Positions 5,861-15,448 of a stretch of DNA of 42,012 bases are shown here, piece by piece. Position 1 is the stretch's first letter, and every line of letters begins with the position of its first letter. Origin of the DNA: a virus. The position numbers were made by a program, and so were the translations under genes. The stretch is from positions 1 to 42,012 of the IMG/VR virus record IMGVR_UViG_3300031251_000050, one strand, 5' to 3'. The notes beneath the pieces were generated by a model. It saw only the letters and a program-made list of their open reading frames with translations. It did no database searches and was not told the origin of the DNA.

Positions 5861-6347
5861 GCAGCTCGGCGCCGCCATTAGCACGGCTGGCCCGTTCATC
5901 GAGGTTCCGCTGCGCAAGTGCACGTCGTGCAGCGCGACGAAGACGGAGAGCGCCTTCTACAAGAACAAGGGCAAGACAATGTCGTCTTGCAAGGAGTGCG
6001 TGAAATCCAAGGTTCGCGCCCACTACGCCGAGAACCGCGAAAGGATCGCGGCGTACGAGCGCGAGCGTGCGCAGCGACCAGAACGAAAGGCGATGGTGAT
6101 CGAGTACCAGCGCAAGCGTATCGGCACCGCCGAGCGCACCGCGCGCAGCCGCGTCAGCAACGCACTGCGAGATGGCCGCCTTGTGAGGCAGCCGTGCGAG
6201 GTCTGCCAGGCCACGGCTCGCGTGCAGGCTCATCACGACGACTACTCGAAGCCTCTCGATGTTCGGTGGCTGTGCTTTACCCACCACCGAGAGCACCACG
6301 GGCAGACCGTGACGGCAGCCACACACAAGCGAAGCGAGGCTGCCTGA
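5841..6347 (+). CDS. Zinc-ribbon / HNH-like phage protein
   Basis: Starting at ATG 5841 (GGAGGCGACG upstream), this is a 168-residue protein. An N-terminal zinc knuckle pair, CTSCSATK and SSCKECV, precedes a long basic helix (about residues 50-100). The C-terminal third has a second site: CEVC, then the run ARVQAHHDDYSKPLDVRWLC and HHREHH. This VQAHHDDYSKPL signature is common in small phage proteins annotated as HNH endonucleases or putative zinc-binding proteins. The His/Cys set is present, but I cannot confirm nuclease activity. It overlaps ssb and the next gene, so it belongs to the same operon. Confidence 0.7.
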   Translation: MTRSRSRQLGAAISTAGPFIEVPLRKCTSCSATKTESAFYKNKGKTMSSCKECVKSKVRAHYAENRERIAAYERERAQRPERKAMVIEYQRKRIGTAERTARSRVSNALRDGRLVRQPCEVCQATARVQAHHDDYSKPLDVRWLCFTHHREHHGQTVTAATHKRSEAA

Positions 6348-6520
6348 TGCCCGCGCACCCTCACGAGATGCGGGCGCTGCACACGGTCACCTGCGTCGTG
6401 TGCGGCACGGTGGCGCCGGCCAAGTCGCCGCTGCGGCAGACCTGCCAGTCCGACGCGTGCGTCGAAGAGGCGCAGCGGCGGCGCAACCGCGCTCGCAAGC
6501 TGGCCGCGAAGTTGAAGTGA
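6347..6520 (+). CDS. Mini zinc-ribbon protein (C-x2-C-x13-C-x4-C)
   Basis: This is a 57-residue protein that starts by a 1-base stop/start overlap. It is almost entirely one zinc ribbon: CVVCG, then QTCQSDACVEE, then a basic helix RRRNRARKLAAKLK. The Cys spacing C-x2-C-x13-C-x4-C followed by V-x-E is exactly the spacing found at the N-terminus of the Cas6-like protein at 13749 (C18, C21, C35, C40), and the flanking residues match too. It is probably a nucleic-acid-binding module. An inverted repeat follows the stop codon. Confidence 0.6.
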   Translation: MPAHPHEMRALHTVTCVVCGTVAPAKSPLRQTCQSDACVEEAQRRRNRARKLAAKLK

Positions 6521-6576: not shown

Positions 6577-6903
6577 ATGGCGACCACCAAGACCACCAAG
6601 ACCACCAAGAAGACCAAGACGAAGCCCGCGACCGAGCGCGCGGTGCTGGTGACCACGGCGCACCGAGGCGTGTTTTTCGGCTACGCGACGAAGACCGACG
6701 GGGAGACCATCGAACTGAAGCGCGCCCGCCTGTGCGTGTACTGGTCGGCGGACGTGCGCGGCTTCATGGGCCTCGCGTCGGGCGGCCCGACGAAGAGCTG
6801 CAAAATCGGGCGGGCCGCGGACATCGAGCTGCGGAACGTCACCGCCGTGTTGGAGGTGACCGAGGCCGCCGCGAAGGCGTGGGAGGCGTCGCCGTGGGGC
6901 TGA
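6577..6903 (+). CDS. DUF6948-like phage protein
   Basis: This is a 108-residue protein. A Thr/Lys-rich N-terminal tail (residues 1-18) is followed by a compact beta domain: VLVTTAHRGVFFGYATK, IELKRARLCVYWSADVRGF, GLASGGPTKSCKIGRAAD and a final helix EAAAKAWEASPWG. This order, with RGVFFGY, a CxYWS segment and the SPWG end, matches the phage domain known as DUF6948. Its function is not known. The next gene, the Gly/Tyr repeat protein, starts with a GTG inside its last codons, so the two are translationally coupled. Confidence 0.6.
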   Translation: MATTKTTKTTKKTKTKPATERAVLVTTAHRGVFFGYATKTDGETIELKRARLCVYWSADVRGFMGLASGGPTKSCKIGRAADIELRNVTAVLEVTEAAAKAWEASPWG

Positions 6904-7226
6904 TCCGCGGAGAGCTGCCGGAGTGGGCGAAGGGCTCCGGCTACGGCTCCGGCTACGGCTCCGGCTCCGGCTACGGCGACGGCGGATACGGCGACGGCGG
7001 CTCCGGCTACGGCTACGGCTCCGGCTACGGCTCCGGCTCCGGCTCCGGCTCCGGCTACGGCGACGGCGGATACGGCGACGGCGGCTCCGGCTACGGCTAC
7101 GGCTACGGCTACGGCTACGGCTACGGCTCCGGCTCCGGCTCCGGCTCCGGCTACGGCGACGGCGGATACGGCGACGGCGGCTCCGGCGACGGCGGCTACG
7201 GCTACGGCGATGACATCGTGAAGTGA
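6894..7226 (+). CDS. Gly/Tyr-rich low-complexity repeat protein
   Basis: This is a 110-residue protein from GTG 6894, placed after a GGGAGGCGTCGCC ribosome site and overlapping the DUF6948-like gene. A 13-residue head (VGLIRGELPEWAK) is followed by about 93 residues of Gly at every second position, with Tyr, Ser or Asp between, and the tail DDIVK. A 12-residue unit YGDGGYGDGGSG occurs three times with GY/GS runs between. Such sequence is disordered and typical of self-associating condensate or adhesive proteins; that role is inferred. Expression is supported by the coupled start and by a frame kept intact through the repeats. Confidence 0.65.
   Translation: MGLIRGELPEWAKGSGYGSGYGSGSGYGDGGYGDGGSGYGYGSGYGSGSGSGSGYGDGGYGDGGSGYGYGYGYGYGYGSGSGSGSGYGDGGYGDGGSGDGGYGYGDDIVK
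6933..7211 (+). repeat. Tandem GGC-NNN codon-pair repeat inside the Gly/Tyr gene
   Basis: The stretch is built of hexamers GGCTAC, GGCTCC and GGCGAC with GGCGGA/GGCGGC, and of three larger copies of a 36-base unit coding YGDGGYGDGGSG. All units are multiples of 6 bases, so gain or loss by slippage keeps the frame. Codon choice is nearly invariant (Gly almost always GGC, Tyr TAC), which points to recent repeat expansion. Confidence 0.85.
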
Positions 7227-7231
7227 CAGAA

Positions 7232-7249
7232 GCGCCCCGCGAGGGGCGC
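7232..7249 (+). repeat. Intergenic hairpin GCGCCCC/GGGGCGC, copy 2
   Basis: GCGCCCC (7232-7238), a GCGA tetraloop of the stable GNRA class, and GGGGCGC (7243-7249) form a perfect 7-bp hairpin 5 bases after the stop of the Gly/Tyr gene. No T-tract follows. The stem is identical to that at 6526-6545. The remaining 92 bases to the next gene hold a possible 23-codon reading frame (7251-7322) with no other support. Confidence 0.65.
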
Positions 7250-7341
7250 ACATGCCAGCCGCAGAGCCCGGCGCCCACGCGGCGCCGCTGGGCGCGACTC
7301 CCAGGGCGGGCGCCACGGACTGAGACAGACAGGAGGCCACG

Positions 7342-7614: not shown

Positions 7615-8756
7615 TGGACCACGACGAAATCACCCGCGAGCGCGATGCCGCGCTGCGCGAGGCGGGCGAGATGCAGGACGAGCGCGACCGGGCCCGCAGC
7701 GAGCGCGACCGGGCGCGAGAGGAGCGCGACGAGGCGGTGGGGCAGCGGGACGAGGCGCGGGCGATCCCGTGCGGGCTCGACATGCCGCCGTCTCCGTCCA
7801 TCGTGGCGCGCGGGCTGAACGAGGCGCGCGCGACCGAGCGCAGCGAGTGGGCGGCCAAGATCGCCACGGTGACCGCCGAGCGCGACCAGTGGCGAGCCGA
7901 CAGAGGCCATGCGATCATCGAGCGCGACAACACGCTTGGCAAGCTCGCCACTGTCACCGCCGAGCGGGACCTGGCGCTGGGCAAGCTCGAAGCTGTGACC
8001 GCCGAGCGCGACGAGGCGCGCATGCAAGAGCGCCGCATCACGCAGTGCGCGCTTTCGCTGGCCAACAACTATGGCGCCGCCATCCACATCGCCAACGGCA
8101 TCGTGACCGGGTGGGACATGCCGCCGCAGAGGACCGCGCAACTCGCCGCCGTCATCGCCGAGCGCGACGAATGGCGGGACAAGGCGCGCACCATCATCGA
8201 CGCGCGCGACGCGAACGAGCGGATGATGGCGAGGTTTCGCCGCATCGCCAAGGCGCTCGGGATCGAGGTCGCGTTGAACGACGAGGTTGAGCGGTGCGCC
8301 ATCGAGAAGATCGAGGCGCTCAAGGTCGTCACCGCCGAACGAAACGCGATGCGTGAAACGTTCAACAAGTTCAACGACATGATGGCCGAGCGTGACGCCG
8401 CCCGACGCGCGGCCGAGAACTACCGCGCCGGCGCCACGAAGCGCATCGAGGAGATGGCGATCGAGCGCAGCGGCCTGCGCGCCGAGATCGATGAACTGCG
8501 GGCCAAGCTCGACGCCGAGCGCAAGACGGTGCGGCTCACGACCGAGCAGCTCTCGGCGGTCACCGACGAGCGCGACGCCGCCCGCGCGGAGCTGGACGCG
8601 TTCGTCGACGCGCACGAGCCCGCCGATGCGGGGCGCGTGGCGGAGCTCGAGGCCATGTGCGCCGTGCTGGCGGCCATCGTCCGCTACGACAGCTCGCGCA
8701 CCGTCGCCGACGTCATCGCCGAGGCGCGCGAAGCCGTGCAGGCGGTGCGGGCATGA
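7614..8756 (+). CDS. Long coiled-coil protein
   Basis: This is a 380-residue protein, nearly all helical. It has many copies of a TAERD/ERDxA pattern (for example TVTAERDQWRADRG, TVTAERDLALGKLEAVTAERD), typical of parallel coiled coils built by internal duplication. A non-coiled stretch around residues 140-175 (QCALSLANNYGAAIHIANG) interrupts it. The last 50 residues form a shorter helical domain. No catalytic motif is visible. It lies between unknown early genes and a DUF3310 gene, with overlaps on both sides. A scaffold or SMC-like structural role is possible but unproven. Confidence 0.6.
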   Translation: MDHDEITRERDAALREAGEMQDERDRARSERDRAREERDEAVGQRDEARAIPCGLDMPPSPSIVARGLNEARATERSEWAAKIATVTAERDQWRADRGHAIIERDNTLGKLATVTAERDLALGKLEAVTAERDEARMQERRITQCALSLANNYGAAIHIANGIVTGWDMPPQRTAQLAAVIAERDEWRDKARTIIDARDANERMMARFRRIAKALGIEVALNDEVERCAIEKIEALKVVTAERNAMRETFNKFNDMMAERDAARRAAENYRAGATKRIEEMAIERSGLRAEIDELRAKLDAERKTVRLTTEQLSAVTDERDAARAELDAFVDAHEPADAGRVAELEAMCAVLAAIVRYDSSRTVADVIAEAREAVQAVRA

Positions 8757-8968
8757 CCGACCCCGTCCACCACCCAGCGCACTACACGAGCCACCCCAGC
8801 GGCGTGGAGGCGATCGTCATATGCGAGCATCACGGATTTTGCATCGGCAACGCCATCAAATACCTGTGGCGCGCTGGCTTGAAGGGGTCCGCCATCGAGG
8901 ACCTCGAGAAGGCGCGCTGGTACATCGACCGAGAGCTCGCGCGGCTGCGCGGAGGGGAGAGCAAATGA
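8753..8968 (+). CDS. DUF3310 protein
   Basis: This is a 71-residue protein with the full DUF3310 signature: VHHPAHYTSHPSGVEAI at the N-terminus, then FCIGNAIKYLWRAGLKG and a helix IEDLEKARWYIDRELARL. Members are common in phage early operons and are often annotated as nucleotide-kinase-like, but the biochemical role is not settled. It starts by an ATGA overlap and its end overlaps thyX by 4 bases; the position beside thyX would suit nucleotide metabolism. Confidence 0.9.
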   Translation: MTDPVHHPAHYTSHPSGVEAIVICEHHGFCIGNAIKYLWRAGLKGSAIEDLEKARWYIDRELARLRGGESK

Positions 8969-9633
8969 TCGTCGTGAAGCCGCGAGTCGAGGTCGAAGGG
9001 CCGATCGACGGAGCCGCCATCCTTCGCAGCATCGAGCGCGTTGCGCGCACTTGCTACAAGAGCGAAGACCTCGCGTGCGACGGGAGCGCAGAGCGACTCG
9101 TTGCCAAGCTGCTTTCGCATGACCCGCCACATCTGGCGATGTGCGACCACGTGACGATCCGCGCGAAGTTTGTCGTCGACCGCGGCATCACGCACGAGAT
9201 CGTGCGGCACCGGATCGGCGTCGCCTACGCGCAGGAATCGACGCGGTATTGCAACTACTCGAAAGGGAAATTCAGCGAGCAGATCACCGTGATCGAGCCG
9301 CCCGGCCTGACAGGCGGCGCGCGCGAAGCGTGGCTCACCAGCGTGGCCACCGCGGAGCGCTGCTACCTCGCGATGGTCGCCAACGGCGCGTCACCGCAAC
9401 TCGCACGCAGCGTGCTCCCTACGTGCACGAAAGCGGAGCTGTACGTCACGGCATCGGTGACCGCGTGGCGGCACATCTTCAAGCTCCGCACGGGCAAGGC
9501 GGCGCACCCGCAGATGCGGCAGGTGATGGTGCCGCTGGTCGCGTTTCTCGCCGCGCGATGCCCGATCCTGTTCGACGACATCGACCACAGCGAGATTGTC
9601 GACCCCGCCGAAGTTGTCGAGGTGACATCGTGA
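8965..9633 (+). CDS. thyX: Flavin-dependent thymidylate synthase
   Basis: This is a 222-residue protein that converts dUMP to dTMP using FAD, NADPH and methylene-tetrahydrofolate. The ThyX motif is present as RHRIGVAYAQESTRY (the RHRxxSxxxxSxR class). Upstream, HVTIRAKFVVDRGITHEIVRHR, and downstream, ARSVLPTCTKAELYVTASV and the HPQMRQVM end, are also typical. The canonical Ser after RHR is shifted or replaced (IGVAYAQES), while the second Ser and the Arg are kept. The ATG at 8965 follows GGAGGGGAG. It supplies thymidylate for phage DNA synthesis. Confidence 0.95.
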   Translation: MIVVKPRVEVEGPIDGAAILRSIERVARTCYKSEDLACDGSAERLVAKLLSHDPPHLAMCDHVTIRAKFVVDRGITHEIVRHRIGVAYAQESTRYCNYSKGKFSEQITVIEPPGLTGGAREAWLTSVATAERCYLAMVANGASPQLARSVLPTCTKAELYVTASVTAWRHIFKLRTGKAAHPQMRQVMVPLVAFLAARCPILFDDIDHSEIVDPAEVVEVTS

Positions 9634-9659
9634 GCGCGGCTGCGCGAGGAGGCGGGGAG

Positions 9660-10022
9660 ATGAGCGAGCTGACGACGGAGGACGTGGCGATGGCCGCTCT
9701 GGAAGCCGCATTTGCGGCGGGCGTCTGCGCCGAGGCCAACGACGGTAACGCGCCGTTCGAGTGGTGCGTGAACGCCGCGCTCAACACCACCAAGAGGGAG
9801 CTCGACGAAGCGCTCCGCCCCCTCGCCCGCCGGCTCGTCGCGCTCGTGCGATCCGCGGCGCTGCGGGAGGCGGTTGCGATGGTGGCGGAGAACGCCGCTC
9901 ACTACGCACGCGAGGAACTGTGCAGCACGCCCGCGGAGCGAGTCCTGTTCAGCAACGCCGCTGCGACCCTGCGTGTCGAGGCTCGCGCACTCCGCAGGAT
10001 GGCCGACGAGGTGCAGTCGTGA
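9660..10022 (+). CDS. Hypothetical helical protein
   Basis: This is a 120-residue protein. The ATG at 9660 has a strong GAGGAGGCGGGGAG ribosome site; a GTG at 9630 that overlaps the thyX stop is an alternative start adding 10 residues. The sequence is helical and Ala/Glu/Arg-rich, with two Cys in the first third (VCAEAN, FEWCVN) and one near residue 94. No family is recognised. Its stop overlaps the GTG start of the next gene. Confidence 0.55.
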   Translation: MSELTTEDVAMAALEAAFAAGVCAEANDGNAPFEWCVNAALNTTKRELDEALRPLARRLVALVRSAALREAVAMVAENAAHYAREELCSTPAERVLFSNAAATLRVEARALRRMADEVQS

Positions 10023-10504
10023 GCGCGGTTGATGGGCCACTGCCCTACGTGATCGACGGACTCCGCGCCGACCTCGCCACCGTCATCGCGCGCGCCGAGC
10101 GGGCGGAGGCCGAGGCCGATCGTCTGCGCCACGTCCACGACAACGCATGGGCGATCCTAGGAGCCGCAGATGGCGAATCGCTAGTCGAAGCTTCGATTCG
10201 CGTGAGAGCGCACGCCAAGCGGGCGGAGGCCAAGGCGACGTCGCATCGCAAGATTGGCTGGACGCTTCTCGGCGACGGCTACGCCGCGGGCGTCGAGGCG
10301 GCGGCGAAGCAGCTTGAGGAAGCCGCGAACGTTCAGGAGAAGGATGCGCTCGATGACCTCCACCGTCAGAACGTCGCCGAGCTGAACGGGGCGAACAGGC
10401 CCATGACCTGCACGAACATCAACAGCTACGACGCGGCGCAGATCGAGGCGCTGCGTGAGGCCGCGGGACGCGTGCGCGCGCTCGTGCGGAAGGGGGCGAC
10501 GTGA
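10019..10504 (+). CDS. Hypothetical coiled-coil protein
   Basis: This is a 161-residue protein from GTG 10019 in a GTGA overlap. Residues 14-40 (RADLATVIARAERAEAEADR) and 60-80 (RVRAHAKRAEAKA) are predicted coiled coil with repeated RAEAEA/KRAEAKA units. A helical C-terminus follows. There is no catalytic motif. It lies directly before the ASCH gene, whose GTG start overlaps its stop. Confidence 0.55.
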   Translation: MSAVDGPLPYVIDGLRADLATVIARAERAEAEADRLRHVHDNAWAILGAADGESLVEASIRVRAHAKRAEAKATSHRKIGWTLLGDGYAAGVEAAAKQLEEAANVQEKDALDDLHRQNVAELNGANRPMTCTNINSYDAAQIEALREAAGRVRALVRKGAT

Positions 10505-10983
10505 AAGCGCTCTCCATTCGGCAGCCGTGGGCCTGGGCGATCATCCACGGCGGCAAGCGCGTCGAGAACCGCGATTGGAAGGGCTGCGCCTACCGCGGCG
10601 AGGTCCTGATCCACGCGTCGAAGTGGCCAGCGACGTCGAAGGGCAAGGCTTACGAGTCGTTCGTCGACGAAGCGCTCAGCGCCGTGCGGACTGCGCAGGA
10701 CACGGGCTGGCCACTACCAAAGCCGGCGTGCTTCGCCCTTCGCGACATGCTCGACTCGCGTGGCGGCATCGTCGGGATCGCGCGCATCGTGGACGTTCTC
10801 GAACACGAAGCGCCGTCCTGGATCGTGACCGAGACAGAACGCATCTGGTGGACGGGCGGATTCGCGCTCGTGCTCGACGACGTGCGGCCGCTGCCGCTCA
10901 TCCCCTGCGTCGGCGCGCTGGGCCTGTTCAACGTGCCACCGCCGGTAGCTGGCGCGGTCCGCGTCGCGCGGAATGGGGCGTGA
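10501..10983 (+). CDS. ASCH domain protein
   Basis: This is a 160-residue protein from GTG 10501. It opens with KALSIRQPWAWAIIHGGKRV, then ENRDWKGCAYRGEVLIHASK, the hallmark of the ASCH fold: a beta-barrel related to PUA that binds RNA or modified nucleotides. Later GGIVGIARIVDVLE and WWTGGFALVLDDVRPL complete the domain. Phage ASCH proteins are common and mostly uncharacterised. Its TGA overlaps the ATG of csf1, so it may be translated together with the CRISPR module. RNA binding is inferred from the family. Confidence 0.85.
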   Translation: MKALSIRQPWAWAIIHGGKRVENRDWKGCAYRGEVLIHASKWPATSKGKAYESFVDEALSAVRTAQDTGWPLPKPACFALRDMLDSRGGIVGIARIVDVLEHEAPSWIVTETERIWWTGGFALVLDDVRPLPLIPCVGALGLFNVPPPVAGAVRVARNGA

Positions 10984-11963
10984 TGGACTCCGCATCCACG
11001 CTCCTGCACGCGCACTGTGGCTCGCCTACGGTCGCCGAGTGCAGCGACATCGAGCGCACGGCCTGCTGGCACTGCGGCGGCTCGACGACGCGCGGGCAAC
11101 TCGTGATGCGGTGGATGGGACGAGACTTCGTCGGTCAGAACCGCATCAAGGCGCCCCACAGCCAGCACGTGTGCGAGGCGTGCATCTGGGTCATGGCCCG
11201 CTCGAGCGACGTGCCGCATCGGCCCGCGCAGCCGGGGCAGCAGTGCGGCCCGAACTTCCGCAACTTCTCGCACATGCTCGACGCGCGCGGCTACGTGAAC
11301 GCGAGCAAGGGTGAGAAGCCGACGATTCGCGACTGGCTGCGCGCGCCGAAGGCGGGCCGATGGTTCGCGGCCATCGCCGAGAGCGGGCAGAAGCACGTGA
11401 TCCCCTACGCGCCGATCAACATCGGTGCGACGGGCGGCAGGATCCAGTTCGAAGAGCAGGTGGTCGCGCTTCCGCGCGATGACGCCGGATGGCGCATCGT
11501 CGACACGTGCACCTCGCTGCTCACGCTCGGCGCGACGAAGGAGAGCGTTGCAAGCGGGCAGTACACGCCGGGCGAGTGGCAGCGATGCGGCGAAGCGATC
11601 CGCGCCTTCGAGCGTGACCACGCGGGCGCGCGGCACTCGACGTGGTTCGTGCTCGTCGTGTGGCTCGCGCAGCGAGACGAGGAAGCGGTAGCGGCTCGCA
11701 TGGCCGCAGAAAAAGAGGCGAAGAGTGGCAAGGCTCGACGAGGCGGCGAAGGATCGGTTTCTGGCGGCGACGGTGCTCGTGCTGCTCGACCTGCGGGCGG
11801 CGTACCTCGCAAACGGGGCGAGCGCGCTCAAGCACTGGGACCAGCTACTGGACCGGATGCGAGCCGCGACGCGCACGACGAGCAGCGTGCAGGAGTGGCA
11901 CACGTCGATGCTGCGGTCGCTCCAACTTGGAGCGCCGGGCAGCTCGGCCTGTGGAGCTCTTGA
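10983..11963 (+). CDS. csf1: Csf1-like large subunit of a type IV CRISPR-Cas complex
   Basis: This is a 326-residue protein. A four-Cys zinc finger is formed by C28 and C31 (CWHCGG) and C64 and C67 (CEACIW). It is followed by RDWLRAPKAGRWFAAIAESG (residues 116-135) and QKHVIPYAPINI, the block by which I recognise Csf1. Csf1 is the Cas8-like subunit at the end of the type IV ribonucleoprotein. The last 80 or so residues (from about 248) overlap the cas11 frame and are Gly/Ala/Arg-rich; codon use there follows cas11, so this tail is probably a tolerated extension. It ends with AGQLGLWSS. The ATG overlaps the ASCH stop. The start of the next gene inside it supports strong coupling. Confidence 0.8.
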   Translation: MDSASTLLHAHCGSPTVAECSDIERTACWHCGGSTTRGQLVMRWMGRDFVGQNRIKAPHSQHVCEACIWVMARSSDVPHRPAQPGQQCGPNFRNFSHMLDARGYVNASKGEKPTIRDWLRAPKAGRWFAAIAESGQKHVIPYAPINIGATGGRIQFEEQVVALPRDDAGWRIVDTCTSLLTLGATKESVASGQYTPGEWQRCGEAIRAFERDHAGARHSTWFVLVVWLAQRDEEAVAARMAAEKEAKSGKARRGGEGSVSGGDGARAARPAGGVPRKRGERAQALGPATGPDASRDAHDEQRAGVAHVDAAVAPTWSAGQLGLWSS

Positions 11964-12120
11964 GGCGCTGGTGCAGGAAGTCGGCGCGTGCCGCGCGGAG
12001 TGGCTCGATCTGATCGAGCGCGAGCACGGCTATCTCATCGCGGCAGCGAGGCTGGAGTCTGAGAGGCGGCGCGATGTGCGCGACGCCAAGCGTGACGAGA
12101 TTCGGCTCGAGGGAGAGTGA
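11725..12120 (+). CDS. Cas11-like small subunit of the type IV complex
   Basis: This is a 131-residue, all-helical protein from GTG 11725, with GAGG 6 bases upstream. It starts inside csf1 in another frame; third-position GC is high in this frame across the overlap, so it is the main coding frame there. Cas11 proteins are small helical bundles that pack along the Cas7 backbone, are very divergent, and in IV-B loci lie between csf1 and csf2, exactly as here. The assignment rests on position, size and helical content rather than on sequence identity. It ends 1 base before the csf2 ATG. Confidence 0.6.
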   Translation: MARLDEAAKDRFLAATVLVLLDLRAAYLANGASALKHWDQLLDRMRAATRTTSSVQEWHTSMLRSLQLGAPGSSACGALEALVQEVGACRAEWLDLIEREHGYLIAAARLESERRRDVRDAKRDEIRLEGE

Positions 12121-12121
12121 C

Positions 12122-13102
12122 ATGGAAAAGCGTCGATACGAGTTCATTCTGCAGGCGATTCAGCCCATCGCGCACCACGCCGAGAGCTTCGGCAACAGCG
12201 CGATCCACATGCGGCTAAAGATTCGCCAGCCCGACGGATCCTTCGTGAACGTGCCGAGAATCACCGGCGATACGATGCGCCACGGTCTTCGCGAAGCGGC
12301 TGCGTACGCGTTCCTCGACGCGGCCGGCATGCTCGACACGCCCGCGCTGACGGAGAGCGCGCTGCGACTGCTGTTCGCTGGCGGCATGATCACGGGGGCC
12401 GACGCGGGGTCGGTGAAGATCGACGGATACCGCGAGATGGTGGAGCTGTGCCCGCCGCTCGCGCTGCTCGGCGGATGCGCGCAGAACCGCAGCATCCCAG
12501 GCCGCTTGCAGGTCGACGACGCGATTCTCATCTGCGAAGAGACGTCGCACCTGTGGAGCGACTGGACGCGGGCGTTCGTCGCCGAGATGTCGATCGACAC
12601 GCACCGCGCGCACGTCGAGGAGGTCCAGCGCGTGCGCATGGACCCGTCGCTCGTGCCGCATCACCGCGCGCTGCTCACCGATGGCGGCGACGCGATCGTC
12701 AAGCGGCTGGGCAAGAGCGAGAAGGCGAGCGCGAAGAAGGACGCGGTCGAGAAGGACGAGGCCAAGTCGACGATGCTGCCGCGCCGCTACGAAACGATCG
12801 TCGCTGGCTCGCTGTTCATGTGGGGCCTCGAGTGCACGTGCATGAGCGAACTCGACGTCGACACGCTCGACGCGATGTGCGCGGCGTTCACGAGCAACAT
12901 GGTCGTCGGCGGCAAGCGCGCGACCGGCAACGGGCGCATGCGCGCCATCGCGGCGCAGAACATCGCCGTCCTACGTCCGCGCGACGCGGCGCAGACGCTC
13001 GACCTCGTCGGGCCCGGCAACCGCCACGGAGAGCGCTTCGCGGCGCACGTACGCGTGCGCGCCGACCGCGTGCGCGCCTGGCTGTCGCAGGTGGAGGCGT
13101 GA
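12122..13102 (+). CDS. csf2: Csf2 (Cas7-type backbone RAMP) of a type IV CRISPR-Cas system
   Basis: This is a 326-residue protein starting at ATG 12122 after a GAGGGAGAG site. It shows the Cas7 layout: an N-terminal strand YEFILQAIQPIAHH, the segment VPRITGDTMRHGLREAAAY (residues 44-62) that matches the Cas7 glycine/arginine entry helix, then LRLLFAGGMITG, CPPLALLGG and a Lys/Glu-rich insertion at about residues 200-225 that would form the thumb or a loop. Near the C-terminus, SNMVVGGKRATGNGRM is the second Gly-rich element. Cas7 subunits polymerise along the guide RNA. The short distance to cas11 and the GTGA overlap with csf3 support one complex. Confidence 0.8.
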   Translation: MEKRRYEFILQAIQPIAHHAESFGNSAIHMRLKIRQPDGSFVNVPRITGDTMRHGLREAAAYAFLDAAGMLDTPALTESALRLLFAGGMITGADAGSVKIDGYREMVELCPPLALLGGCAQNRSIPGRLQVDDAILICEETSHLWSDWTRAFVAEMSIDTHRAHVEEVQRVRMDPSLVPHHRALLTDGGDAIVKRLGKSEKASAKKDAVEKDEAKSTMLPRRYETIVAGSLFMWGLECTCMSELDVDTLDAMCAAFTSNMVVGGKRATGNGRMRAIAAQNIAVLRPRDAAQTLDLVGPGNRHGERFAAHVRVRADRVRAWLSQVEA

Positions 13103-13761
13103 CACCGCTGCATGTCGTGGCGCATCTGCAAGGCGGCATCTGCCTACCCAACGGGCCGATCGCGCTCGACGCGCTGCTGACGTGGGCCGAGGCGATGCGG
13201 CGTGAGCTTCCGCCGCCAGCGACCGCGCAGGACTGCCAGGACCTGCCGCTGCCGATCGCGCGCTCGACGTGCGGGCGCTACTGGCTCGCCAGCTTCGGCG
13301 CGTACGAGCCTGAGGAGCACGAGGTCGACTGGACGAATCGACGCTTCCCGATCGCGGAAGCGCAGATGCTCGCGGAGCCGAAACTGCGTCGCGTGAACAT
13401 GAGTGCTGGCGCGTGCAAATCGTACCGCCTGCCGCGCGAGCGCATGCACCTGCGAGGCGATCGGATCGATTGGTGGGCCATCGGCGACGCCGACGGCGTG
13501 CGCGAGCTGCTCATGTACGTCGGCTATCTGGGCAAGCGGCGCGGGGTCGGGCTCGGGCGCGTGCGCGAGTGGCGCGTCGGGCCGTGCGAGTCGTGGGGCG
13601 AAGGCTTCCCAGTCGTGCGTGACGGCTACCCGACGCGGGCGCTCCCGCTCGACGTGAGCGGCATCGCCGATGATGCCGAGCGCGCGATGCACGCGATCCT
13701 GCCGCCGTACTGGGCGCACACGCGACGAGTGGAGGCGTGGGTGCCGTCATGGGTGGCGTAG
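13099..13761 (+). CDS. csf3: Csf3 (Cas5-type RAMP) of a type IV CRISPR-Cas system
   Basis: This is a 220-residue protein from GTG 13099, overlapping the csf2 stop. The N-terminal half begins VVAHLQGGICLPNGPIALDA and includes LLTWAEAMRRELP. The middle KSYRLPRERMHLRGDRIDWW leads to AIGDADGVRELLMYVGYLGK, then the glycine-rich loop KRRGVGLGRVREW (residues 146-158). That ends the RAMP ferredoxin fold in the way seen in Cas5 and Csf3, where it binds the 5' handle of the guide. The 3' end overlaps the Cas6-like gene by 13 bases. Confidence 0.8.
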   Translation: MTPLHVVAHLQGGICLPNGPIALDALLTWAEAMRRELPPPATAQDCQDLPLPIARSTCGRYWLASFGAYEPEEHEVDWTNRRFPIAEAQMLAEPKLRRVNMSAGACKSYRLPRERMHLRGDRIDWWAIGDADGVRELLMYVGYLGKRRGVGLGRVREWRVGPCESWGEGFPVVRDGYPTRALPLDVSGIADDAERAMHAILPPYWAHTRRVEAWVPSWVA

Positions 13762-14726
13762 CTACGATCGTCGGTCCCGAGGTCGCGTCGGCGACGGTGT
13801 GCCGCTTCTGCGGCGCGCCGTTCGTCGGCATCTATCGCGCGCAGTACACGTGCGCGCAGGAAGCGTGCGTAGCGGAGCGGGTGCGGGCGTACGAGCGCGA
13901 GCGCATGCGCGACCCGTCACGCGTGCTCGCATCTCGTGCCCGCAGCCGCGAGTGGGCGCGCGAGCATCGCGGGTGCCACCGGTCGGAGCCGTGGCTACTC
14001 GGGCAGCCTGCGCACGGATCGCATCTGCCCGGCGGCGGCTGCGAGATATTCGTGGCGCCAGCGCCGAAGTGGCCTGTCGAGCACCGCAACGTCCGCGCGC
14101 TGCACGGGGCGATCACCGCGCTTCTCGACCACGGGCACGACGAGGGCGAGCCTGGGCGTGGGCGCTGGCCAGAGTGGGCGCTCATCCCGTGGCCACGCGG
14201 CACGCTCGGCTGGGGCGTGTACTGGCGCACCGAGGCCGGAGCGGCGCTCGCATGCACGACCCGCGACGGCCGGCTCTACGACCGCGCGTGCGCCTTTCGC
14301 TTCGGCCCGCTCGTGCGGGTCAAGGCGCCCGAGATCGCCACGCGGGGGCGTCGGCGCATCGCGATCGATGCAGTCACGCCGGTGTCGATCCAGAGCGCCG
14401 ACAGGACCATCGAGCGCACGTCGCCAGATGCCACGTCGCTGATCTCGGCGCTGTCGCACGGCTTCGGCCGACGCTGCGGGCTGCTCGAAGATGTGCCGAC
14501 GAGCGACTTGCGGATCGAGGTCGTGAGCGACGAGACGCGCATCGAGACGGTGAAGCTCGGCGCGTACGCGTCGGCGAAATACGGCCATGTGCGCGGCTGG
14601 GTCGGCCGCGTCGTGGTCGAGTGCAACGCGCCAGCGCACTGGCTACTCGAGTGCGCGGCGCGGTGCGTGGGGCTCGGAGGCCGAACCGCGTTTGGTTTCG
14701 GTCGAGTGAGGGTGGCGCCGTGCTGA
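13749..14726 (+). CDS. Cas6-like RAMP endoribonuclease with N-terminal zinc ribbon
   Basis: This is a 325-residue protein from ATG 13749 (GGAGG upstream; a GTG at 13737 is an alternative). Residues 15-75 hold a zinc ribbon (C18, C21, C35, C40) and a basic helix. Residues 98-325 look like Cas6: a first ferredoxin unit with a candidate catalytic His in RNVRALHGAITALLDH (H119), a VTPVSIQ segment, and a C-terminal unit with RGWVGRVVVECNAP ending in the G-rich loop VGLGGRTAFGFGRVRV (307-322). Cas6 cuts CRISPR repeat RNA. Known IV-B systems lack Cas6, so its presence and the fused ribbon are unusual. It overlaps csf3 and the CysH-like gene. The Cas6 call is from motif order alone. Confidence 0.7.
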   Translation: MGGVATIVGPEVASATVCRFCGAPFVGIYRAQYTCAQEACVAERVRAYERERMRDPSRVLASRARSREWAREHRGCHRSEPWLLGQPAHGSHLPGGGCEIFVAPAPKWPVEHRNVRALHGAITALLDHGHDEGEPGRGRWPEWALIPWPRGTLGWGVYWRTEAGAALACTTRDGRLYDRACAFRFGPLVRVKAPEIATRGRRRIAIDAVTPVSIQSADRTIERTSPDATSLISALSHGFGRRCGLLEDVPTSDLRIEVVSDETRIETVKLGAYASAKYGHVRGWVGRVVVECNAPAHWLLECAARCVGLGGRTAFGFGRVRVAPC

Positions 14727-15448
14727 TCGAATGCGACCGGCACACGCGCGCCGATCTGGATCACTGGCGCATGCGCGAGCGGCAGGATGCCGTGCACTGC
14801 AAGCTCGCGAGCATGGCGCGCAAGATCGACGCGGCGAAGCGAGCGATCGCGACCTTCGACGCTCACCATCGAGGCGCCTACTACGTGGGCGCGTCCTGGG
14901 GGAAGGACTCGGTCGTGGTCGCCTCGATCGCGTACGCCGCGGGCGTGCCGGCACCGCTCGTGTACGTGCGGGTCGAGCCGATGGCGAACCCGCACTGCAC
15001 GCTCGTGCGCGACGCCTTCCTTGCTGCGCACGCGGCCGACTACGACGAAGTGCGCATCGACTGCGAGCGCGACGAGCATGGGCGCTTCCCGAGCGTCGGG
15101 CGCCTGGAGTCAGGCTTCGCCATCGCTGCCGAGCGCCACGGCGACGCGTACGTGAGCGGCGTACGCGCCGAGGAGAGCGGAGCGCGCCGGCTGCGGATGG
15201 GCGCGCACGGAGTCGAGAGCCTGCGCACGTGCGCACCGATCGGCTGGTGGCGCGGTGAGGACGTCTTCGCCTACCTGCACGCGCACGAGCTGCCCGTGCA
15301 CCCGGCTTACGCGATGACGATGGGCGGACGGCTCGACCGCAACAGGATCCGCGTGGCCACCATCGGAGGCGAGCGCGGCACCGGGCACGGGCGAGCAGAC
15401 TGGGAGGCGCGGTACTACCCGCGAGAATCCGCAGCAATCCTGGCGTAA
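14720..15448 (+). CDS. CysH-like PP-loop (PAPS-reductase family) protein of the type IV module
   Basis: This is a 242-residue protein from GTG 14720 (GAGGG upstream), overlapping the Cas6-like gene by 7 bases. The PP-loop is S59-WGKDS-V, the nucleotide-alpha-hydrolase motif. Later ESGFAIAAERHGDAYVSGVR and RAEESGARR (about 149-157) give the conserved G-x-R-x-x-E-S pattern, followed by CAPIGWWRGEDVFAYLHAHE. The Cys-rich sulfate-reduction tail of true CysH is absent. IV-B CRISPR loci are known to carry a CysH-like ancillary gene of unknown function, and this fits. RNA or nucleotide modification is possible but unproven. It ends the CRISPR block. Confidence 0.85.
   Translation: MLIECDRHTRADLDHWRMRERQDAVHCKLASMARKIDAAKRAIATFDAHHRGAYYVGASWGKDSVVVASIAYAAGVPAPLVYVRVEPMANPHCTLVRDAFLAAHAADYDEVRIDCERDEHGRFPSVGRLESGFAIAAERHGDAYVSGVRAEESGARRLRMGAHGVESLRTCAPIGWWRGEDVFAYLHAHELPVHPAYAMTMGGRLDRNRIRVATIGGERGTGHGRADWEARYYPRESAAILA

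Follow-up and report, generated by a model that had tools for sequence, protein, structure and literature searches.

A Cas6-like protein with an N-terminal Cys4 module in a phage locus resembling type IV-B

CRISPR-Cas loci of type IV-B are described as having no crRNA-processing enzyme in the relevant passage of one review (PMC8175902), and a passage in a second source (PMC11127173) gives their processing enzyme as unknown. The phage operon analysed here combines csf genes with a gene, X, for a Cas6-like protein that carries a Cys4 module. What might such a protein do in a locus of this kind, and which RNA might it act on?

The operon and its relation to type IV-B

The window, that is, the whole stretch of DNA analysed, is an IMG/VR virus record of 42,012 bases with a G+C content of 69.8%. 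Since tail sheath, tape measure, baseplate and major head genes are encoded in it (PHROGs), we take its source to be a contractile-tail phage whose genome is possibly incomplete. One phage ORF contains a long repeat rich in Gly, Tyr, Ser and Asp (6872-7261). Between 10983 and 15448 the plus strand carries a tight operon in the order csf1-cas11-csf2-csf3-X-cysH:

10983-11963, + strand: csf1, large subunit, type IV Cas8-like (PADLOC, 1.4e-23; putative start codon)
11725-12120, + strand: cas11, small subunit-like, in the +1 frame and overlapping csf1 by 239 nt (PADLOC typeIV_Cas11, 1.2e-6)
12122-13102, + strand: csf2, Cas7-like (PADLOC, 7.9e-45)
13099-13761, + strand: csf3, Cas5-like (PADLOC, 1.7e-37)
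13749-14726, + strand: X, 325 residues, Cys4 module plus Cas6 domain (open ORF, profiles and predicted fold)
14720-15448, + strand: cysH-like gene with the PP-loop SWGKDS (Pfam PAPS_reduct, 7.8e-8; aligns with cysH of other type IV loci)

The NCBIfam matches of csf1, csf2 and csf3 all fall under their equivalog cut-offs, that of csf1 to Csf1 standing at 9.2e-9. The ORF of X shares 13 bases with the end of csf3 and 7 with the start of cysH and is as the first-pass annotation of this DNA had described it, namely open, with a Cys4 N terminus ahead of a Cas6 domain. That annotation had also placed a Cas6-like protein in an otherwise IV-B-type locus, and on this point the profiles, the predicted fold and the csf neighbours agree with it.

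With type IV-B the locus shares csf1, cas11, csf2, csf3, the adjacency of a cysH-like gene, carriage by a mobile element and the fact that no array was found; passages of PMC12669027 and PMC11656645 likewise describe IV-B without an array. It differs in adding a Cas6 to a type that lacks a crRNA-processing enzyme, the subtype being assigned here by gene content and profiles. Because a protein of predicted Cas6 fold sits in the operon, we file the locus as a Cas6-bearing variant and not as canonical IV-B; it looks like a Cas6-bearing phage variant of type IV-B in which the Cys4 fusion is optional.

Two known systems come close to this arrangement. The viral IV-B system of Fuxiviridae, as set out in part of PMC10848311, also has a cysH-like gene in its operon, but it belongs to an archaeal virus and has a two-repeat mini-array, and the word Cas6 is absent from that text. 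On the Gloeobacter morelensis plasmid pGMOR1 (L007), csf2, csf3, a cysH-like gene and an annotated Cas6 occur together, as here; in the 12.4 kb examined, however, that Cas6 is of the Cmx6/Cas6a type, lies between csf2 and csf3 and has no Cys4 fusion. Among the titles and abstract openings searched there was no published report of a phage IV-B locus with Cas6, or of a zinc-ribbon or zinc-finger fusion to Cas6. Our claim of novelty is therefore limited to this: neither the fusion nor the recurring Cas6 was met in the literature searched.

Predicted fold and candidate active site of X

Nine PADLOC Cas6 models match X (best E 2.9e-9), as does the Pfam Cas6 family PF10040 (E 2e-5, 25.7 bits, narrowly over the cut-off of 25); the NCBIfam Cas6 equivalog TIGR01877 scores 18.4 bits, far under its cut-off of 58.65. 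Three features of this part of the protein are of concern here:

14004-14723, + strand: predicted Cas6 domain, about residues 86-325 (VIA-align ranges begin at 85-95 and end at 325 against Cas6 chains)
14103-14138, + strand: candidate catalytic residues, from the codon of His119 (14103-14105) to that of His130 (14136-14138)
14670-14705, + strand: Gly-rich C-terminal loop GLGGRTAFGFGR, residues 308-319, with G308, G310, G316, G318 and R319 invariant

X is predicted to have a Cas6-like tandem ferredoxin fold. In an AlphaFold2 model built on a 13-row alignment (mean pLDDT 70.7, pTM 0.61) the tandem ferredoxin folds to be expected of a Cas6 are present. We found further that: (i) the top matches of the model in a Foldseek search of the PDB are Cas6 (E 1.6e-6); (ii) VIA-align superposes it on S. 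thermophilus Cas6 6fjw with Z 13.7 over 208 residues, on TTHA0078 of T. thermophilus with Z 12.9 and on the type IV Cas6 6njy with Z 11.9; and (iii) its top 15 VIA-align matches are all Cas6 or Cas6 domains. The predicted tandem ferredoxin fold and the Gly-rich C-terminal loop are common to X and these three Cas6 proteins, from which X differs in its N-terminal Cys4 module, in having no array and in sequence, identity across the structural alignments being 11-16%. Csf5, the crRNA endonuclease of type IV-A, shares the fold class but is less close to X than is 6fjw (6h9h, Z 8.0), and its active site consists of arginine residues, according to a passage in PMC8175902, whereas X has invariant histidines. 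A Foldseek search of predicted viral structures with X gave no match at E < 0.001, and a sequence-profile search of solved structures returned only chance-looking matches.

It might be argued that X is a second RAMP subunit of the Cas5/Csf3 kind and not a Cas6, as Csf3-type proteins can weakly match Cas6 profiles (the L006 protein is an example). We find this hardly credible: X has no typeIV_Cas5 match, whereas the neighbouring csf3 is matched at 1.7e-37, and the best structural matches of the predicted model are Cas6. The idea of X as a duplicate of Csf3/Cas5 was rejected on the same profile result.

Conservation was judged in an alignment of 16 rows including X (A11), the other rows being 26-44% identical to X. 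The first-pass annotation had picked out His119 as a candidate residue, together with a VTPVSIQ strand and the terminal loop. Both of the latter were found and both hold invariant columns (T210 and P211 in the strand), and W155 is invariant too. All 16 aligned homologues do keep His119, and they equally keep His130, a residue that had gone unnamed. The model puts His119 within a helix (112-126) and His130 in the loop directly after it. The VIA-align alignment with 4c8y begins at model residue 93, paired with chain residue 1, and His37 of TTHA0078, named in the title of 4c97, would, barring gaps, fall at about model residue 129, next to His130. In Cas6 the general base is Tyr or His and the general acid His (PMC11127173, in part), a scheme into which His119 and His130 would fit. 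We propose that His119, which would take the Tyr/His position in the first helix, and His130, in the next loop, may form the acid-base pair that cuts RNA.

A different view of the same protein is that it caps the Csf complex as a structural RNA binder and cleaves RNA hardly or not at all, much as Cas6 may remain bound in I-E, I-F, I-G and IV-A complexes (also in part of PMC11127173). We consider this unlikely, given that the retention of two histidines down to 26% identity suggests catalysis.

Recurrence of Cas6 and of the Cys4 module in related loci

Searches of phages, plasmids and viral contigs with the single sequence of X found no relatives, and the same was true of csf2 alone (viral and genome contigs) and of a csf3 alignment. 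A three-row csf2 alignment (window, Rhodovastum, Gloeobacter) succeeded, giving 39 viral loci, among which 25 have a Csf2 46-58% identical. A search with an alignment of X and its homologues (Cas6x) added L053, which carries csf genes, and a clade csf2 alignment added L116 (a Betaproteobacteria MAG), L117 (Acidobacteria MAG RBG_13_68_16) and L118 (viral). Once repeats had been dropped (L011 and L033, with the match figures of L010, and L019, with those of L018), there were 27 distinct loci including the window.

Cas6x is present in 17 of the 27 (window, L010, L014, L015, L024-L029, L031, L032, L034, L053, L116-L118), its gene lying before csf1, between csf3 and cysH, or after cysH. One more locus, L022, has a Cas6e-type gene (8652-9413; PADLOC Cas6e 1.8e-8, PF08798 3.4e-8) in the slot of X between csf3 and cysH. 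No Cas6 was found in the other nine (L012, L013, L016, L017, L018, L020, L021, L023, L030), whose contigs may be fragments; the Cas6x profile was run over the whole contigs of L012, L013, L017, L021, L023 and L030, and L016, L018 and L020 were checked for PF10040 and around the operon only. In the csf tree L016, L017, L018 and L020 are near copies. A Cas6 that nine loci did not show is not essential to the system; its function nonetheless seems wanted, as it is found as Cas6x in 17 loci and as a Cas6e-type protein in one.

The start of the operon shows a regularity of its own. In 27 of 27 loci (the window and 26 relatives) cas11 begins inside csf1 in the +1 frame, the overlap in the window being 11725-11963. 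With the first matched codon of cas11 and the stop codon of csf1 as end points, the overlaps measure 44-332 nt, mostly 220-290 nt, and are long, conserved and out of frame.

A fused Cys4 module is found in eight of the 17 Cas6x loci, that is, next to csf genes in seven loci besides the window (L010, L015, L025, L032, L053, L116, L117), and nine Cas6x genes are without it. In the L116 gene (1995-3623, on a MAG contig) Cas6x is fused to a tandem pair of Cys4 modules and carries a C-terminal extension. In L025 the reading frame is broken in the Cas6 domain; this sequence was excluded from alignments A8 and A11 and included in A6 and A7. The suggestion that the Cys4-Cas6 combination may define a new variant stands in part: the combination is found repeatedly and has the look of a variant, but the fused gene is one of several forms, nine genes being unfused and one of Cas6e type. 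On a Cas6x tree of low resolution, in which 3 of 13 inner branches are well supported, the fused state requires four changes, one of them forced; on a csf1-3 tree of 24 rows (without L116-L118) it requires four, two of them forced. Repeated gain or loss of the fusion is suggested by these trees. TnpB/OrfB_IS605 genes lie upstream of cas6x in L015 (3443-4636) and in L118 (1288-2298), the latter in the place expected for the Cys4 module.

The module itself has a counterpart elsewhere in the window:

13800-13868, + strand: Cys4 motif of X, C18-x2-C21-x13-C35-x4-C40 (from sequence; predicted zinc binding)
6347-6520, + strand: stand-alone Cys4 protein of 57 residues, kin to the N terminus of X (same Cys spacing; profile comparison)

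Cys spacing is identical in the two, and the motif is followed by V-x-E in X and by V-E-E in the 57-residue protein. Spacing alone is weak evidence, being present in 12 of 18,997 ORFs (those of at least 30 residues on both strands of the window and of overlapping contig chunks), which include X, the 57-residue protein and, from these phages, five further Cys4 proteins or fusions. Profile alignment, however, does relate them. With hhalign the alignment of fused modules gives 92.4% (E 5.2e-7) against the 57-residue protein and 0.5% against the Csf1 finger, and the fused-module profile scores the 57-residue protein at 22.1 bits against 19.7 for the best shuffle (cysteines kept in place), none of 2000 shuffles reaching the real score. 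Judged by these comparisons, the fused module and the 57-residue protein are related.

The first-pass annotation had gone further and proposed that the phage recruited its own zinc ribbon, which we do not uphold. The fusion occurs in divergent phages and on two MAG contigs, and the fused-module profile ranks the 57-residue protein 13th of 17 matches (E 0.0048), after Cys4 proteins of other phages; on this ranking its gene was rejected as direct donor of the module. The top stand-alone matches are tandem Cys4 proteins of the L034 phage (E 1e-8 and 6e-7) and one of the L031 phage (2.6e-6). Because the fusion appears in divergent loci and Cys4 proteins in several phages, the module is better regarded as a common phage part and the fusion as not peculiar to this phage. 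The L031 and L034 phages (chunks L112-L114) encode several repeated-Cys4 proteins, with up to four modules per ORF. In L030 a Cys4 protein without a Cas6 domain (8402-8884; E 1.7e-5) lies between csf3 and cysH and may be a stand-alone form or a remnant.

An AlphaFold2 model of residues 1-90 of X exceeds pLDDT 90 at about residues 21-70 and consists of short strands and helices 38-54 and 56-72; for the module alone there was no PDB Foldseek match at E < 2, and VIA Z was at most 3.5. From its cysteines we infer that the module binds zinc. A basic stretch separates the motif from the Cas6 domain, and the Cys4 module with the basic helices that follow it would be an extension that is optional and probably assists in holding RNA or the complex.

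Possible sources of RNA and the role of X

No CRISPR array was detected by the finders used in the 42,012-base window, a contig that may be incomplete, and none came from ten contigs of relatives with Cas6x (G001, G005-G013) that are whole or nearly so. The array finder looked for 14-mers occurring at least three times 45-100 nt apart, and it covered G005 (the contig of L014) up to its last 418 bases; for L027-L029 and L116-L118 the repeat scan covered the fetched loci only. The same finder did detect arrays in G004 (L013) and G020 (L040). In L013 a Cas12u1/Cas12f-like gene for a 675-residue protein (9544-11571; PADLOC 7e-45) stands beside a IV-B-type locus without Cas6, and an array with repeats of about 37 nt occupies 11587-12010. 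The distant type IV locus L040 (10986-12715) has both a Cas6 matching PF10040 (E 3.6e-19) and a four-repeat array of 61-nt period. Two array candidates were rejected as coding repeats: Gly/Tyr/Ser repeats at 6.9-7.2 kb of the window and a supposed mini-array at 4.2 kb of L022.

The RNA might instead be a non-array RNA encoded by the phage (a single hairpin, an mRNA or a small RNA), which X would process into guides for Csf. Operon linkage of cas6x with csf genes would suit such a role, and the viral IV-B system with a two-repeat mini-array (PMC10848311, in part) makes viral guide RNAs conceivable. We nevertheless judge this improbable. Similar 24-mer pairs (at least 21 of 24 positions identical, 48-100 nt apart) are few or absent at the 17 Cas6x loci, and every spacing is divisible by three, as in coding repeats; pairs were judged by their spacing, those of L022 being read individually. 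In the window, the gap that follows cysH shows no folding advantage over its shuffled versions (z -0.16), and the window has no Rfam match. Strong hairpins do occur 3' of cas6x in L026-L029 (z -3.0 to -3.9, lowest in L026) and also in L024, but these were rejected as Cas6 targets, the A-rich sequence before them pointing to a probable opposite-strand terminator. Their stem varies between loci in apparently matching ways.

We favor, at what we would call an even chance, the possibility that X is the RNA maturase or loader of the operon, acting for the Csf complex on RNA that is provided in trans and most likely consists of host CRISPR transcripts. Our reasoning for a supply in trans is that the phage contigs yielded no array. 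X would fill the place of an RNA-processing or RNA-loading subunit, which is absent from canonical IV-B loci; the cut RNA, coming above all from host CRISPR transcripts, would be passed on to the Csf1-Cas11-Csf2-Csf3 filament, and the Csf complex would either capture host crRNAs or employ them as guides. The Cas6 profiles, the predicted fold, the invariant histidine pair and the recurrent linkage to csf genes support a maturase or loader, and CAST systems that take host crRNAs via Cas6 are described in part of a review (PMC11656645). Against it count the failure to find an array, a mini-array or significant RNA structure, the nine of 27 loci without Cas6, the marginal Pfam score, an NCBIfam score below its cut-off and the mean pLDDT of 70.7. 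To these must be added a result given in part of PMC7937560, where the purified IV-B complex had assembled on heterogeneous RNA and crRNAs were not enriched when it was co-expressed with I-E Cas6 and an array.

It is also possible to imagine X working apart from Csf, as a stand-alone counter-defence RNase or repeat-binder directed at host CRISPR RNA. The variable position of its gene and the nine loci without Cas6 would be in keeping with this, as would the use of RNA decoys against Cas6 by phages (PMC11656645, in part). We think it very unlikely, as Cas6x is accompanied by csf genes in the fetched loci and as strong Cas6x matches in 396 and 399 cellular genomes (two groups) were confined to two MAGs already known. 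The linkage to csf is biased by most loci having been found through csf2, but L053, found via Cas6x, still has csf genes.

If X is a maturase or loader, a fuller scenario may be offered tentatively, and as a whole we hold it to be doubtful: a phage IV-B lineage may have regained an RNA maturase, so that host crRNAs would be taken, trimmed by X and loaded on Csf, either blinding host immunity or turning it on rivals, with Cys4 as an exchangeable targeting or RNA-gripping part. Which RNA is carried by IV-B complexes becomes a testable question with these Cas6-bearing operons. The RNA that X binds or cuts would tell which RNA the complex should hold, and the loci described here supply many natural versions of the protein with and without the Cys4 module.
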